From NCBI GenBank assembly GCA_009694375.1, contig SHVB01000003.1:124001-188000 (forward strand): DNA of 64,000 nt, given 5' to 3'. Of this stretch, positions 51,748 to 56,395 are shown one piece after another. Source of the DNA: Acidimicrobiia bacterium. Lineage in GTDB: Bacteria; Actinomycetota; Acidimicrobiia; Acidimicrobiales; VFJN01. How positions within the stretch are numbered: position 1 is the first letter of the stretch; each line of letters begins with the position of its first letter. Both the position numbers and the translations under genes were made by a program. The notes under the pieces were generated by a model that did not search any database, was not told the DNA's origin, and worked only from the letters and a program-made list of their open reading frames with translations.

Positions 51748-52172
51748 TCAGGGATACGGGGCCGCCTGCATCGCCTCCAGGTCGGCTTCGGCAATGTCGG
51801 GACGCAGGCGAGTCGTGCTGACGCTCACCGCCCCCAGGGCCGAAAGAACCACCGCCATCCCCACCAGTTGGGTCACGCTGAGCGGCTCATCGATCCAAAG
51901 AGCGGCGGCGGCCGCCGCCAGCACAGGGATGCCCAGCGTGAGCAGCGACAACATGAGCAACGACACGTGCCCGTGGGCCAGCACCATGAGGTAATGGCCC
52001 AGCAGCCCGTTGATCACCGTGATGAACAAAATGGTGAGCCAACCGTTGGCATCGGTCACGCCCAGGGTGCCGTCGAACAGCAGCGGCAGGGGCACCACCG
52101 CCACCGCCGCCACGATCGCCATACCGGTGAGGTACTCGAGGGCGCTCAGCTCCTGACGAGCGGACTTGGAAC
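51748..52172 (-). pseudogene. EamA (DMT) transporter, 3' half, split by insertion
   Basis: Encodes the C-terminal part of an EamA transporter: KSARQELSALEYLTG then a series of transmembrane helices (AIVAAVAVVPLPLLF, ILFITVINGLLGHYLMVLAH, SLLMLSLLTLGIPVLAAAA). It lacks a start of its own; ATG 52122 is internal to the original protein. Joined to the 5' half at 55865-56395, after removal of the insertion and one target-duplication copy, it restores an uninterrupted frame of about 315 aa, a normal EamA length. Confidence 0.85.
52165..52172. repeat. Left copy of 8-bp target-site duplication
   Basis: CTTGGAAC, identical to 55865-55872, flanking the insertion. Confidence 0.85.
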
Positions 52173-52186
52173 GGGACTTCCGCGGA
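52173..52186 (+). repeat. Left terminal inverted repeat
   Basis: GGGACTTCCGCGGA; positions 52178-52189 also form a perfect 12-base palindrome CTTCCGCGGAAG. Confidence 0.8.
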
Positions 52187-52190
52187 AGGT

Positions 52191-52226
52191 TCCGCGTAAT
52201 GCTCCGCGTAATGCTCCGCGTATTGT
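52191..52226 (+). repeat. Subterminal 12-bp tandem repeats, left end
   Basis: TCCGCGTAATGC twice, then a third degenerate copy TCCGCGTATTG. Could be transposase-binding repeats. The right end has a different repeat. Confidence 0.7.
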
Positions 52227-52365
52227 AAACGAGGTTTGCTACCCCCGTGTTCCTAGCGGTTTTTCACTGGTTTTGAGCGGTCAGATTCGCCCCGGTTAGC
52301 CCGGTTCCTAGCGCCCGGTTCCTGGTGCCTGCCCTTCGCCCGGCGCTCCGCTCTGTTATGCGAGG

Positions 52366-52383
52366 GACCCCCTATAGGGGGTC
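52366..52383. other. 18-bp perfect palindrome inside the element
   Basis: GACCCCCTATAGGGGGTC, about 70 bases past the stop of the minus-strand gene at 52454. Could be a terminator stem or a protein-binding site. The rest of 52227-52453 shows no supported gene. Confidence 0.55.
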
Positions 52384-52453
52384 TGGCGCAAGACGAAACG
52401 AGTTGGGTGGGAGTTGCGGGACTGGTGGCGGATCGGGTGCGGTGGGGGTCGGG

Positions 52454-52915
52454 TTATTTGGTTGGGGTGATGGGGCTGGTAGTGAGCCGTGCGGTTTCGC
52501 AGTCAGGTTCAGGGAACGCCCGGCCATCGATCAGTTCACCAACGCGATCGAACTTTGCTTTGCGTCCGCGGGTGTTTCTTATTGCGTCTTCGACTTTTTG
52601 TGACAGGTCACGGGCAGTTTCCTCGTCGAAGCCCTCACGCATAGAGGACCTCACGATATCTTGGTCGCTTCCCATCTGGAAGGCTGTTTCCTTAGCATTG
52701 GGGGCTTTGTCGTCAAATAGGACAACCTGTGGCATGTTGCGCGCTTCTGCTTCTAGGTACTCGATCATGAGTGGATCTGAGGTCAACTCACGGATTCTGG
52801 TTTCGACGTCATCGCGGATCGCGTTGTTGTTCACATCTGGTCCGGCTAACTCGGCAAGCGAATCGTTACTCGGCCGGAAGACGGAACAACTAGAAACCCC
52901 AGCAGCACACAACAC
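52454..52915 (-). CDS. Lipoprotein-like cargo protein with Ca-loop-like motif
   Basis: 153 aa from GTG 52915. The N-terminus MLCAAGVSSC looks like the end of a lipoprotein signal (lipobox Cys10) with most of the hydrophobic part missing; the frame is open only 13 codons further upstream, so the gene may be trimmed. The segment GPDVNNNAIRDDVETRI matches a DxNxNxIRDD loop often seen after lipoprotein signals in exported proteins. The remainder is helical and charged. Function unknown. Confidence 0.55.
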   Translation of the reverse strand: MLCAAGVSSCSVFRPSNDSLAELAGPDVNNNAIRDDVETRIRELTSDPLMIEYLEAEARNMPQVVLFDDKAPNAKETAFQMGSDQDIVRSSMREGFDEETARDLSQKVEDAIRNTRGRKAKFDRVGELIDGRAFPEPDCETARLTTSPITPTK

Positions 52916-53043
52916 TGCAGATCTCCACTCTGCGTCGTCCCGTTTATTTCAGGATTGAAACCCTTTACTTTTCGGCCTGGTGCGATTGGCGATGGTTTGT
53001 ACGAGCATCGGAGGGGTGCTTTGTAAATAGGGGGAGCGTTTTT

Positions 53044-54042
53044 ATGCGTGGAACCGCTTTAGGTAACGAACCGCCGGGGTGTGGAGATCGCCGACTCAAC
53101 CCGACAACGGTCGGTGGTGCTGTCATGGTGTTGGGTCTGGTGGCTGGAATCGCGGTTCCAGGTGCCGCAGGCGCAGATGCGCTCGCATCGCCAAATAGCC
53201 TTGATGGCAGAGATGCCACCGAGGTGGTTGATCTCTTTGGCGTTCCGGCGAGAACAATCGATTCGAACGGCCTCGTGTCGGTCGACGGGCTCGGCCTGCC
53301 GGAGGTCGACATTGCCTCTGCGGCTGGCAACGTGTTCACCTTCGGACTTCCAGCGACGCTGGCACCGACGCCGTTCGTTGTGGATTCGGCGACGTCGACC
53401 CTTACTGCAGTCGATGGGACACACGCGGTTGTCATCGAGGAACTCGGGCTGAACTCGTTCCGGGCCGTTATTGTTATGAAGAACGCGGAGGCACCGTCCG
53501 AGTACCGCTTCGACCTGGGTCTTCCTTCGGGGTGGACCGTCGCCGCAGCGACTTCGGGCGAGGTCATCGTGAGCAACAACAACGGTGGCGAGGTGGGGCG
53601 GGTAGCGCTTCCGTGGGCCGACGACGCGAACGGCACCGCGATGGACACCCGGTTCGAGGTCGTCGGCACGTCGATTGTGCAAACAATCAACACCGACGGC
53701 GCAACCTTCCCTGTCGTGGCCGACCCATCGTTCCAAGGTGACTGCGGCACCGTCACCTGTACAGTGCGCCTGGACCGCGCCCAGACGAAGAACGCTCGCG
53801 ATGCCTCTCAGCTTGTCGGTGCAGCTGCGACTATCTGTGGGGTGCTTTCGGGCGGTACCCTGGCCATCGTCTGCGGTGCAGCGATCCTCCCGGCCTCTAT
53901 AGTTCTCGCTACTTTTGCCGGCCGCTACTACGGGGATGGGAACTGCCTTGGCATTAGGTTCAACAAGTACCCCGTCCCGCCTCTTGTTACCTTCGTGGGG
54001 TGGCCCACCCAGGTGAAGTACGGCGAGTACAACTGCAAGTAG
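53044..54042 (+). CDS. Secreted cargo protein with Cys-containing hydrophobic C-terminus
   Basis: 332 aa. GGGGGAG precedes ATG 53044. Signal peptide with a long N-region and core GGAVMVLGLVAGIAVPGAAGA, cleavage near residue 44. Residues 45-230 are beta-rich and end in TINTDGATFPVVADPSF, a linker common in exported actinobacterial proteins. The C-terminal part has VRLDRAQTKNARDASQ, a hydrophobic stretch (VGAAATICGVLSGGTLAIVC) and CLGIRFNKYP ... YNCK, with several Cys. Followed by a tiny membrane-protein gene. An extracellular effector or bacteriocin-like role is only a guess. Confidence 0.65.
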   Translation: MRGTALGNEPPGCGDRRLNPTTVGGAVMVLGLVAGIAVPGAAGADALASPNSLDGRDATEVVDLFGVPARTIDSNGLVSVDGLGLPEVDIASAAGNVFTFGLPATLAPTPFVVDSATSTLTAVDGTHAVVIEELGLNSFRAVIVMKNAEAPSEYRFDLGLPSGWTVAAATSGEVIVSNNNGGEVGRVALPWADDANGTAMDTRFEVVGTSIVQTINTDGATFPVVADPSFQGDCGTVTCTVRLDRAQTKNARDASQLVGAAATICGVLSGGTLAIVCGAAILPASIVLATFAGRYYGDGNCLGIRFNKYPVPPLVTFVGWPTQVKYGEYNCK

Positions 54043-54085
54043 GCGAACAACTCCGCAGTTCAACGCACGAACCAGGAAGGATCCG

Positions 54086-54187
54086 ATGATTTTCAATATT
54101 CTTCTTTTAGCGATGGGGGCAGTTGGCATGCTGGCTGTGTTGTCCCTCAGCCGTGGAGGGAAGCACACCGCAACCAGTTCCAAGTAG
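54086..54187 (+). CDS. 33-aa single-TM peptide
   Basis: ATG 54086 follows AGGAAGG at ideal spacing. The peptide is MIFNILLLAMGAVGMLAVLS then LSRGGKHTATSSK: one transmembrane segment and a basic tail. It starts 43 bases after the secreted-protein stop. In the next frame an open stretch across its stop encodes two more membrane segments, so the two may be parts of one three-segment protein broken by a frame change. Confidence 0.55.
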   Translation: MIFNILLLAMGAVGMLAVLSLSRGGKHTATSSK

Positions 54188-54210
54188 TCGCTCTTGTCTT
54201 ACTTGTCGGC

Positions 54211-54345
54211 TTGACGGTGGTGTCGTTCGCGACCGGCGTGAGGATATTCGTCTCGATCGCATGGGCGGCGATGACTCTGTTTACGGCTGTATTCGTGGTC
54301 GGCGGATACGTGAAGCGGTCAAGGGCGTCCGGCCGGGCCTCTTGA
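54211..54345 (+). CDS. Short two-TM membrane protein, start uncertain
   Basis: The frame is open from upstream of 54121 and reads QFQVVALVLLVGLTVVSFAT, then ISIAWAAMTLFTAVFVVGG-like hydrophobic sequence and a basic end KRSRASGRAS. The only possible starts are TTG 54211 and two GTG codons after it, which cut into the first membrane segment; a -1 shift from the 33-aa gene upstream would give a complete protein. The stop TGA overlaps the next TTG (TTGA). Confidence 0.4.
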   Translation: MTVVSFATGVRIFVSIAWAAMTLFTAVFVVGGYVKRSRASGRAS

Positions 54346-55032
54346 TTGCCGACCGGCCCCGACTGCACGATCTCAGCGGGCCCGCCCTAGCGCAACGGGC
54401 GTCGCTTCACGGCGGGGCGACGCTGAGCGTGCAGGTGACAGGGCACGCCGGGAGTATCTCTCGAGGGATCAGCGCTGACGGGTCAAAGACCGATCTCGAG
54501 GACCGCTACTTGGAGTTGTTCTGCCTAGCGAAACCGATCGTCGCGTTGTCGGTGCTAGCTAGATCGAAGGGACTTGGCATCGATGTCGATGCTCCACCTG
54601 TTGGCACCGGAGTACCGGGGTCGGCAGTGCATTGCCTTCTCCGCTCTAGCGCGTCCGAGCGCGGTGCACGCCTTCTTCGTTGCTAGCTCGGGCTTCCTCG
54701 GCGAGTTGGAACGACACGTCGACGCGAGCCCGGGATCGACGGGCATCTCACGACCTGTGGTGCACGATGAGGTGCACCGGCGCGAGGTCGGGTTCTTCAG
54801 CGGATTCTTTCGGACTGACGCCGGAAGCGATCAGCGGTTCTCCACCGCCAGCGAGTCCTCCTACGTAGCGAAGATGGGCGTCGGCCTGGGGTTCGTGGTG
54901 GTACGCCCCGCTTCTGGGACTGTGGTCTCGTGCTTCGGTTCGGTTGCCGGGTTCGATCCGGGTTGGCCCGCATTCGAGATGTCCGAAGTCGCCGACCTGG
55001 TGCTCTCCTGCGACGAGGTATGTGCGACATGA
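54342..55032 (+). pseudogene. Beta-lactamase-fold hydrolase, Cys at nucleophile position, frameshifted
   Basis: TTG 54342 overlaps the preceding stop. The first frame reads LSVQVTGHAGSISRG, then DLEDRYLELFCLAKPIVALSVL and GIDVDAP; this is the N-terminal half of a PBP/class C beta-lactamase-like domain, with CLAK (61-64) where SxxK is expected. After Pro85 (54594-54596) homology continues one base ahead, as APEYRGRQCIAFSALARPSAVHAF, then VGFFSGFFRTD, GLGFVVVRPASGTVV, to 55032. Removing one base from CTCCACC joins both. About 229 aa if repaired. The ATGA at its end couples it to the next gene. Confidence 0.6.
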
Positions 55033-55757
55033 TTATCGAGTTGAGGACACCGCAGTGGGCCGCTGTAGGCGACCTTGTCACAGGCACCTGGGTCGGCGAC
55101 GAACGGGAACCGCAACTCAGCGTCGCAGTGTCATGCTGGCCGCTACACCTTCGCTCCTTCTCTCCGGCGCTTCAACTACCTGACAGTCCAGTCTCGACGG
55201 TCGATCGCGGGAACGGCCCGCTCATCCCGATCGGATGCCGCCCATCAGGCACCCGGCTGCTGCCTGACCTCGCTGACGTCAGAGTCGAGGTGATCTTGCT
55301 CGGGCACCCCTATGGGCAAGGCCAGCTCGCCCTGCGGATCGGGTCGTTGAGCGGCCACGTCACTGCTGTGCTGGAGCAGGTCGAGGACGGCCCCGTCACC
55401 GTCGACGCGCCACACCTAACGATTACCATGGACTGGTGGCGAGCCGTTCAGTGGCTGGGCGACGGTCACACACTCTTTGCTGATCTGGCACAGTCTCAGA
55501 TCGAGATTTCCGGGCATCTCGGTTGTCTCAGCTGGCTTGAGGGTGTGCGGTTCGCTGCGGGACTAGTGGAGCCGGAATGGCGCAGCGGCGATCTCATCGA
55601 GTTCGCACGCCTATGGTCACATGGGGCGCGCCGGCTGAGTTCAACCCTGCCAACCGAGTACTCGCAGCGCCTAGCGAACAAGGCAACTCCGACTGCCTTT
55701 CCCACAGCAGCACACGACATCCCAGCCGGGCAGATAGGCCACCAACCCCGCTCTTAA
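55029..55757 (+). CDS. Cargo protein with SCP2-like C-terminal region
   Basis: 242 aa from ATG 55029, overlapping the hydrolase stop (ATGA). The N-terminal half is unassigned and rich in beta and Pro (PQLSVAVSCWPLHLRSF). Residues about 120-190 (VTVDAPHLTITMDWWRAVQW, then GDGHTLFADLAQSQIEISGHLGC) resemble an SCP2-type lipid-binding domain. Last gene of the cargo, ending just before the right-end repeats. Confidence 0.5.
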   Translation: MIIELRTPQWAAVGDLVTGTWVGDEREPQLSVAVSCWPLHLRSFSPALQLPDSPVSTVDRGNGPLIPIGCRPSGTRLLPDLADVRVEVILLGHPYGQGQLALRIGSLSGHVTAVLEQVEDGPVTVDAPHLTITMDWWRAVQWLGDGHTLFADLAQSQIEISGHLGCLSWLEGVRFAAGLVEPEWRSGDLIEFARLWSHGARRLSSTLPTEYSQRLANKATPTAFPTAAHDIPAGQIGHQPRS

Positions 55758-55760
55758 TGC

Positions 55761-55797
55761 GGTTTCGCGTTCCAAGAACCGTGGTTTCGCGTTCCAA
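55761..55797 (+). repeat. Subterminal direct repeats, right end of element
   Basis: GGTTTCGCGTTCCAA at 55761-55775 and again at 55783-55797, 22 bases apart. Confidence 0.75.
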
Positions 55798-55850
55798 AAA
55801 CACTCTGTTTGGGGTGCGCACCTTGTTGATAAACCCAGGTAGATAGGTAA

Positions 55851-55864
55851 TCCGCGGATGTCCC
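55851..55864 (-). repeat. Right terminal inverted repeat
   Basis: TCCGCGGATGTCCC on the plus strand, the inverse of the left end with one mismatch. Confidence 0.8.
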
Positions 55865-55872
55865 CTTGGAAC
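55865..55872. repeat. Right copy of 8-bp target-site duplication
   Basis: CTTGGAAC, identical to 52165-52172. Confidence 0.85.
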
Positions 55873-56395
55873 AGATGAAGTAAGCCGTCCAGGCCACCAG
55901 GGCACCCGCCGCCAGCAGATCACCCGCCAGACTGTTGGCGCCCCCGCCATCGCCGCCGAGCACCACCAACGCGGTGCCCGCCAACGCCGCCGCCCCCCAC
56001 CCCACCTCCACCAGACGGGGTCGCTCACCGAACATCGGGCCCGCCACCAGTAGCAACAACACCGGCTGGAGCGCCCCGATCACCGTGGCGTTGGCCACAC
56101 TGGTTTTTTGGAGCGCCACGAAGAACAACACGAGATCGGCGGCAAAGGCGAGGCCGCCGAGCAGGGACCGCCGCAGGAGCCAGATCGACAACCGTCCGCC
56201 GGACGCCAAGAACACCACGGTGATGATCGCCGCCCCCAACCAAATCCGGTAGCACGCCAGCCCCAGACCGCTCAGGCCCTCCACGCCCTTGATGAGCACC
56301 GACGACACCCCCCACACAACCACGGCAGTGGAGGCCCCCAACAGCCCCATCACGGGCCGCCGCCCCGACACGTCAGTTCGGGAGGGGGTAGGCAC
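55865..56395 (-). pseudogene. EamA (DMT) transporter, 5' half, split by insertion
   Basis: 177 codons of an EamA-family drug/metabolite transporter from GTG 56395: MGLLGASTAVVVWGVSSVLI, YRIWLGAAIITVVFLASGG, GALQPVLLLLVAGP, up to AYFICSK, with about five transmembrane segments. The frame then runs 36 codons into the insertion and stops at 55754, so a truncated protein could still be made. The leaderless promoter is intact. Its 3' half is at 51748-52172. Confidence 0.85.

Follow-up and report, generated by a model that had tools for sequence, protein, structure and literature searches.

An eamA transporter gene in a 64,000-nucleotide stretch of an Acidimicrobiia genome (GenBank assembly GCA_009694375.1, contig SHVB01000003.1, positions 124,001 to 188,000 of the forward strand; termed the window in the following) is split by a segment of 3,692 bp. 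With a probability of roughly 70%, we regard this segment as a non-autonomous, cargo-carrying transposon that landed in eamA recently and off-target, and that stems from a family residing at the 5' ends of tRNA genes and moved by proteins designated here A and C/B. In a broader proposal, to which we lean slightly, the window element would be an orphan substrate of a new superfamily in the Actinomycetota, in which dead tyrosine recombinases guide a pair of IS4-like DDE proteins to tRNA 5' ends. Its non-autonomous members would shuttle genes for defence and for secreted proteins in tandem arrays beside tRNA genes.

Insertion of the element in eamA

The insert is enclosed by two identical copies of the 8-bp sequence CTTGGAAC (positions 52165–52172 and 55865–55872) and ends in 14-bp inverted repeats, GGGACTTCCGCGGA on the left (52173–52186, plus strand) and GGGACATCCGCGGA, in minus-strand reading, on the right (55851–55864), with 13 of the 14 positions matching. 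The initial annotation, made from the letters of the window, had described the repeats, the inverted ends and the length of the segment, and all of them were found again in the window sequence. The window contains 43,022 pairs of identical 8-mers spaced 300 to 15,000 bp apart; of these, the CTTGGAAC pair is the only one with 13 of 14 adjacent inverted bases, and the runner-up reaches 11 of 14. The exact motif GGGACNTCCGCGGA occurs twice in the whole genome, once on each strand, and these two occurrences are the ends of the element. When the flanks are joined and one repeat copy is removed, the sequence reads ...AYFICSK-SARQELSALEYLTG... in a single EamA frame of 318 amino acids, which bears out the proposed in-frame restoration of the gene. 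Both halves of eamA, the C-terminal part (51748–52164) and the N-terminal part (55873–56395), each on the minus strand, match Pfam EamA. The deviating base composition of the interior also held up, with a G+C content of 0.53–0.64 inside the element versus 0.65–0.71 outside.

The empty site was found in G001, a genome of the same genus. Its eamA ortholog is uninterrupted, shares 94.6% DNA identity over 295 bp spanning the junction and contains CTTGGAAA only once. The CTTGGAAC repeat therefore stems from duplication of the target, and on the scale of the genus the insertion is recent. This dating, already suggested in the initial annotation, is supported by two facts: the ortholog of the sister species is intact, and the EamA halves show no other damage. 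The eamA homolog of G002 (62% protein identity) is intact as well. The insert was not found in G001–G003 or other relatives, and no further copy of the whole element was present in its own genome and 40 relatives. The genome is assembled in 36 contigs, as would suit an assembly chimera at this position. However, a chimera would not yield an 8-bp duplication along with inverted ends whose sequences are seen again in unrelated genomes, where they likewise come with cargo and duplications, and we consider its probability negligible.

Ends at the 5' ends of tRNA genes

In a search of 397 genomes, exact matches to GGGACNTCCGCGGA did not exceed background counts, apart from the two in the window and a few leads. 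One match, in Actinobacteria bacterium IMCC26207 (G273), has about 110 bp of left end in common with the window. With the conserved 128-bp left end of the window as the query (52173–52300, plus strand; approximately 94% identical to the copy adjoining tRNA-Thr in IMCC26207), further left ends were found and aligned. All of them start with GGGACT and then have three or four TCCGCGNNNNNN units, of which the window element has four at 12-bp spacing (52179–52226, plus strand), and they nearly always abut the first base of tRNA-Thr(TGT) or tRNA-Arg(CCT). A scan of about 85,000 species with the pattern GGGACTTCCGCGN6TCCGCGN6TCCGCG returned 28 stretches with 29 left ends, and almost all of the records are Acidimicrobiia-type metagenome assemblies. 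Twenty-two of these left ends lie at tRNA 5' ends and five at tandem junctions in which a right end, 8 bp and a left end follow each other. One is located off-target in a YhcG/DUF1016-like gene of G325 (gene identity judged by eye), and one, from a Deltaproteobacterium, is probably a chance match. The right ends of the family have two TGGAACG repeats in common. In the window, the conserved right end (55757–55864, minus strand) carries two TTGGAACGCGAAACC repeats 22 bp apart and is 90.5% identical over 116 bp to that of a 5,322-bp relative at locus L106. In total, the left and right ends of the family recur in about 30 Acidimicrobiia loci, some of them tandem arrays with an 8-bp repeat between the copies. 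Family ends were not found in phage and plasmid collections.

Several relatives are bounded on both sides. Elements of 1,090 bp (G324, adjoining tRNA-Thr) and of 76 bp and 5,322 bp (in tandem at L106) are flanked by repeats of ACTCGGGC, whereas elements of 8,770 bp (G398) and 16,782 bp (G402) adjoin tRNA-Arg and are flanked by ACGGGGGC. The direct repeats follow each local tRNA sequence. In a 1,601-bp element (G400) they differ by one base. The off-target element of G325, which is the same genome as G402, measures 1,493 bp, lies between copies of the 10-bp repeat ACCCCCAACT and contains a single gene, for an exported BNR-repeat protein. The bounded copies range from 76 bp to 16.8 kb, and each carries different cargo, often defence-type genes. 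Ends that are 90–94% identical to those of the window enclose an unrelated interior at L106. The 76-bp mini-element there (L106, 664–739) consists of nothing but a left and a right end within the tandem array and represents a natural minimal substrate.

Ends, duplications, adjacency to tRNA genes and tandem arrays can be read directly from these loci. As judged from sequence comparison, the ends define a family of elements targeting tRNA 5' ends, for which eamA is an unusual target. The window copy shares with this family the GGGAC terminal repeat with TCCGCG iterons at 12-bp intervals, the paired TGGAACG repeats and the 8-bp duplication. It lies in eamA instead of at the customary tRNA 5' end, and this location is usual rather than obligatory, since the G325 copy is off-target, too. 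The initial view of an unclassified mobile unit is therefore not only supported but extended by a target and by candidate machinery. In the mechanism that we propose, family members would insert in one orientation and precisely at the 5' end of the tRNA gene (tRNA-Arg CCT and tRNA-Thr TGT in close relatives; Lys TTT, Arg CCG and others in distant ones). The 8 bp duplicated upon insertion would usually be the first 8 nt of the tRNA gene, which would leave the tRNA intact, and repeated insertion would give rise to tandem arrays.

Solo left ends are present beside tRNA genes, with chromosomal genes following next. This could be explained by movement of the element through homologous recombination alone, or as an integron-like cassette, at resident left-end-like sites beside tRNA genes. 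Both off-target insertions contradict this explanation, because the eamA and G325 sites have no such resident sequence and yet show precise duplications. Its chances appear slim.

Nor is the family likely to be moved by an ordinary insertion sequence (IS) transposase residing in the larger copies, for which an IS481-like gene (L106), an IS256 gene (G398) and an IS21 gene (G402) come into question. It is true that each lies inside a bounded element and that IS256 generates duplications of 8–9 bp. However, these are three different families, none of which recurs. The IS481-like rve gene at L106 belongs to an insertion of its own within the left end (820–2228), which has direct repeats CCTAG(CG) and the imperfect inverted repeats CGTTGACTCAT / CGTATTGCCTCAT; other left ends are uninterrupted. 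We rejected it as the autonomous enzyme on these grounds. For the IS256 and IS21 genes no ends of their own were found; being mutually unrelated, they were treated as passengers. Since the three genes are unrelated to each other, none is a good candidate for the family enzyme, and we rate this explanation as very improbable. No copy of the ends was seen with a transposase of IS256, ISL3, IS66 or another family producing 8-bp duplications as its own.

Candidate machinery and its association with tRNA genes

A comparison of open reading frames (ORFs) across arrays revealed one operon common to three independent arrays (G402, G404 and G273). Its order is A1-B-C-A2 in G402 and G404 and A1-B in G273, and A1 and A2 are paralogs. 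Invariant positions in the A proteins are a D (in yGDG), YD and R-x-D-x-E-S with a K six residues further on, and the spacings are 87–115 residues between the two D and 151–172 residues between D and E. The last motif of A2, YGLRNDSESINSGYK, conforms to Y(2)R(3)E(6)K, the signature of IS4-type transposases, which is complete in three A members and partial in others. While Pfam and NCBIfam gave no significant match for the A proteins, one member matched DDE_Tnp_1 weakly (E 0.011). By its motifs, A looks like an IS4-type DDE transposase. The C protein matches profiles for XerA and XerD (E 2.4e-6 and 1.3e-4), but the positions of the first catalytic Arg and of the His are replaced and no Tyr is aligned. 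B and the C-terminal half of C are homologous (hhalign probability 99). The A1 gene of G402 (L120, 9278–10963) contains a frameshift near the first putative catalytic Asp.

Of the 397 genomes of the order, 28 encode homologs of A, frequently in a pair of genes separated by about 3 kb and mostly next to tRNA genes. At approximately 26% identity they also occur, labelled 'hypothetical protein', in Streptomyces and Mycobacterium plasmids, and viral contigs contained none. When 18 A-family loci with flanks of about 1.5 kb were checked for tRNA genes, 10 had a tRNA 5' end abutting a sequence that starts with GGG; by a rough figure, a tRNA gene would be expected in about 5% of random loci of equal size. 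The locus of G002 is arranged likewise if its predicted tRNA start is moved by one base, and one of the two tRNA genes at the G001 locus is of this kind. In the closed genome G143, A1, C and A2 reside in a 16,020-bp element with inverted ends matching at 12 of 12 positions (GGGACTGCAAGA) and an 8-bp duplication, AGAGGCCC, which is the start of the adjacent tRNA-Lys gene. G012 contains an element of 20,417 bp that is laid out in the same way; its right end includes two TGGAACG repeats, and another left end is present in tandem. In both genomes the operon, the 8-bp duplication and the tRNA 5' end go together, which provides independent support for their connection, and the position of the operon within bounded elements is directly visible.

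Judging from gene content, motifs and the anatomy of the elements, A would be the catalytic component, C/B would select the target, and the operon would have moved the window copy. More specifically, a complex of the IS4-type DDE protein A, often as two paralogs, and the catalytically dead tyrosine-recombinase-like C/B may act in trans on the TCCGCG iterons of the left end and the TGGAACG repeats of the right end. The element would be cut out or copied and then joined to its target via an 8-bp staggered cut, with the dead XerD-like proteins recognizing the tRNA gene. Such action in trans would suit the window element. In its insert, Pfam and NCBIfam recognized neither a transposase nor a recombinase, as the initial annotation had held for the transposase; no active tyrosine recombinase that would mark an integrative element is present, and Rfam gave no match. 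Because its own genome also lacks an A homolog, the element either was brought in as cargo from another source or persisted after its transposase was lost. Its description as non-autonomous is thereby strengthened.

Could an active tyrosine recombinase move the element instead, with the tRNA gene as attachment site? The tandem junctions, CGCGGAWGTCCC-8 bp-GGGACTTCCGCG, are palindromic and resemble loxP-type sites (12-bp inverted arms, 8-bp spacer), the arrays are direct tandems, and each of them closes with a left end to which no right end belongs, as would be expected of a resident left-end-like site. XerD-like proteins are, moreover, encoded in the operon. On the other hand, a tyrosine recombinase should leave an element-derived overlap on one side, while both off-target copies are flanked by identical, target-derived repeats (CTTGGAAC and the 10-bp ACCCCCAACT), and the repeats elsewhere track each local tRNA sequence. 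The XerD-like proteins lack those catalytic residues that could be aligned. Given the target-derived off-target repeats and the missing residues, we consider a tyrosine-recombinase mechanism unlikely.

A number of observations weigh against transposition by A and C/B as we propose it. The duplication in G325 comprises 10 bp, not 8 bp. Most of the left ends adjoining tRNA genes have no recognizable right end, and therefore some could be resident sites or remnants. The likeness of A to IS4-type transposases is one of motif and spacing. The terminal sequence of the G143 and G012 elements (GGGACTGCAAGA) differs from that of the window's family although the layout is alike, and B was not found in either genome. 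The operons of G273 and G404 lie beyond a left end, and no right end was found for them. This leaves the G402 element as the only one of this end family that is bounded on both sides and carries the operon. Its A1 gene is frameshifted.

Relation to known elements, and cargo

Most bacterial tRNA-associated islands are attributed to tyrosine integrases, whose site of action is the tRNA 3' end. Such elements resemble those studied here in the use of tRNA genes as targets, in forming islands and tandem arrays and in Xer-fold proteins. They differ in that our family sits at the 5' end of the tRNA gene, duplicates 8 bp of its target and combines DDE-like proteins with Xer-like proteins devoid of catalytic residues. 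With the IS4 superfamily (IS4, IS10, IS50/Tn5), candidate A shares the D-D-E spacing and the YREK-type signature, and duplications of 8–10 bp are within the range of the IS4 group. In contrast to that superfamily, there are two A paralogs per operon accompanied by XerD-like proteins, subterminal iterons, strict targeting of tRNA 5' ends and large cargo, and A has no significant Pfam or NCBIfam match. Tn7-like elements are similar in employing several proteins, in orientation-specific insertion at a fixed chromosomal site, in cargo that includes defence genes and in having non-autonomous relatives. However, the duplication here is 8 bp and not 5 bp, the ends start with GGG and are not of the TGT...ACA type, as is also evident for the window element, and no TnsA, TnsB, TnsC or TniQ was recognized.

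Integrative and conjugative elements of the TnGBS type and p-MULT elements have Mutator-type transposases and insert upstream of sigma-A promoters (PMC3942029). They likewise are large bacterial elements mobilized by DDE enzymes with a fixed upstream target; the word tRNA is absent from the main text of that paper (PMC3942029). The DNA transposons named Dada likewise have small-RNA genes, tRNA genes among them, as their targets, but are eukaryotic (PMC3706591). In the literature searched, with subscription papers and preprints outside coverage, no description of a bacterial DDE family at tRNA 5' ends was found. We know of no XerD-like partners of Dada. Provisionally, we consider the family new, while related ideas are known from TnGBS at promoters, from Dada in eukaryotes and from Tn7. 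If our interpretation is correct, there is a second route to tRNA-anchored islands, by DDE insertion at the 5' end that spares the tRNA, with a target selector apparently built from dead recombinases. It would account for some Acidimicrobiia defence islands, and proteins now called 'hypothetical' on chromosomes and plasmids of actinobacteria would receive names. As a substrate the window copy is clean: both of its ends are present, its empty site is known, and no cognate transposase accompanies it.

The initial count of five to six genes in the window element proved generous. Three ORFs are of convincing length: one of 153 amino acids, a possible exported protein not assigned to any family by profile searches (52454–52915, minus strand), one of 332 amino acids with an apparent signal peptide (53044–54042, plus strand) and one of 237 amino acids without a family (55044–55757, plus strand), for which 298 genomes of the order contained one weak relative. 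Relatives of the 332-residue protein are present on Streptomyces, Clavibacter and Curtobacterium plasmids, with 26–40% identity across part of its length. The remainder amounts to one or two tiny membrane ORFs, among them a hydrophobic one of about 50 residues (54190–54345, plus strand), and a frameshifted remnant (54348–55032, plus strand) with a serine-hydrolase-like motif by eye alone and no database match. As a guess, the order of a secreted protein and then small membrane ORFs is what one might expect of a bacteriocin-like unit.

The eamA target shows no significant likeness to the 5' region of tRNA-Thr or tRNA-Arg, as 7% and 14% of random sites, respectively, score equally high. CTTGGAAC is also present within one of the two right-end repeats (TTCTTGGAACGCGAAACC; window positions 55761–55801). 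Possibly the off-target site was chosen through its resemblance to this repeat, or the match is a coincidence. A conserved stretch with the palindrome GACCCCCTATAGGGGGTC (52345–52405), flanked by GCTCCGCTCTGTTATGCGAG / TGGCGCAAGACGAAACGAG, recurs near another family left end, that of L106, and a similar stretch is present, inverted, in the IMCC26207 island.

Family cargo elsewhere includes SNF2-type helicases, type I restriction-like genes in G404 and G409 (judged by eye) and, in the IMCC26207 island, an Hma-like set with GmrSD and AbiEii homologs. On contig 9 of IMCC26207 (L055/L056), about 30 kb of defence-type genes, among them genes for Hma-like HmaB, GmrSD with AlbA_2, Fic and AbiEii, lie upstream of tRNA-Thr and are anchored by a family left end. 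A winged-helix protein of 113 amino acids (AbiEi-like, below the cut-off) is encoded about 130 bp inside the left end at nine tRNA-Arg loci (L079, L083, L085, L086, L087, L090, L093, L097 and L105). It is not universal. In the searched host genomes its gene is found only beside these ends, with additional degenerate copies about 3 kb beyond them in G403.

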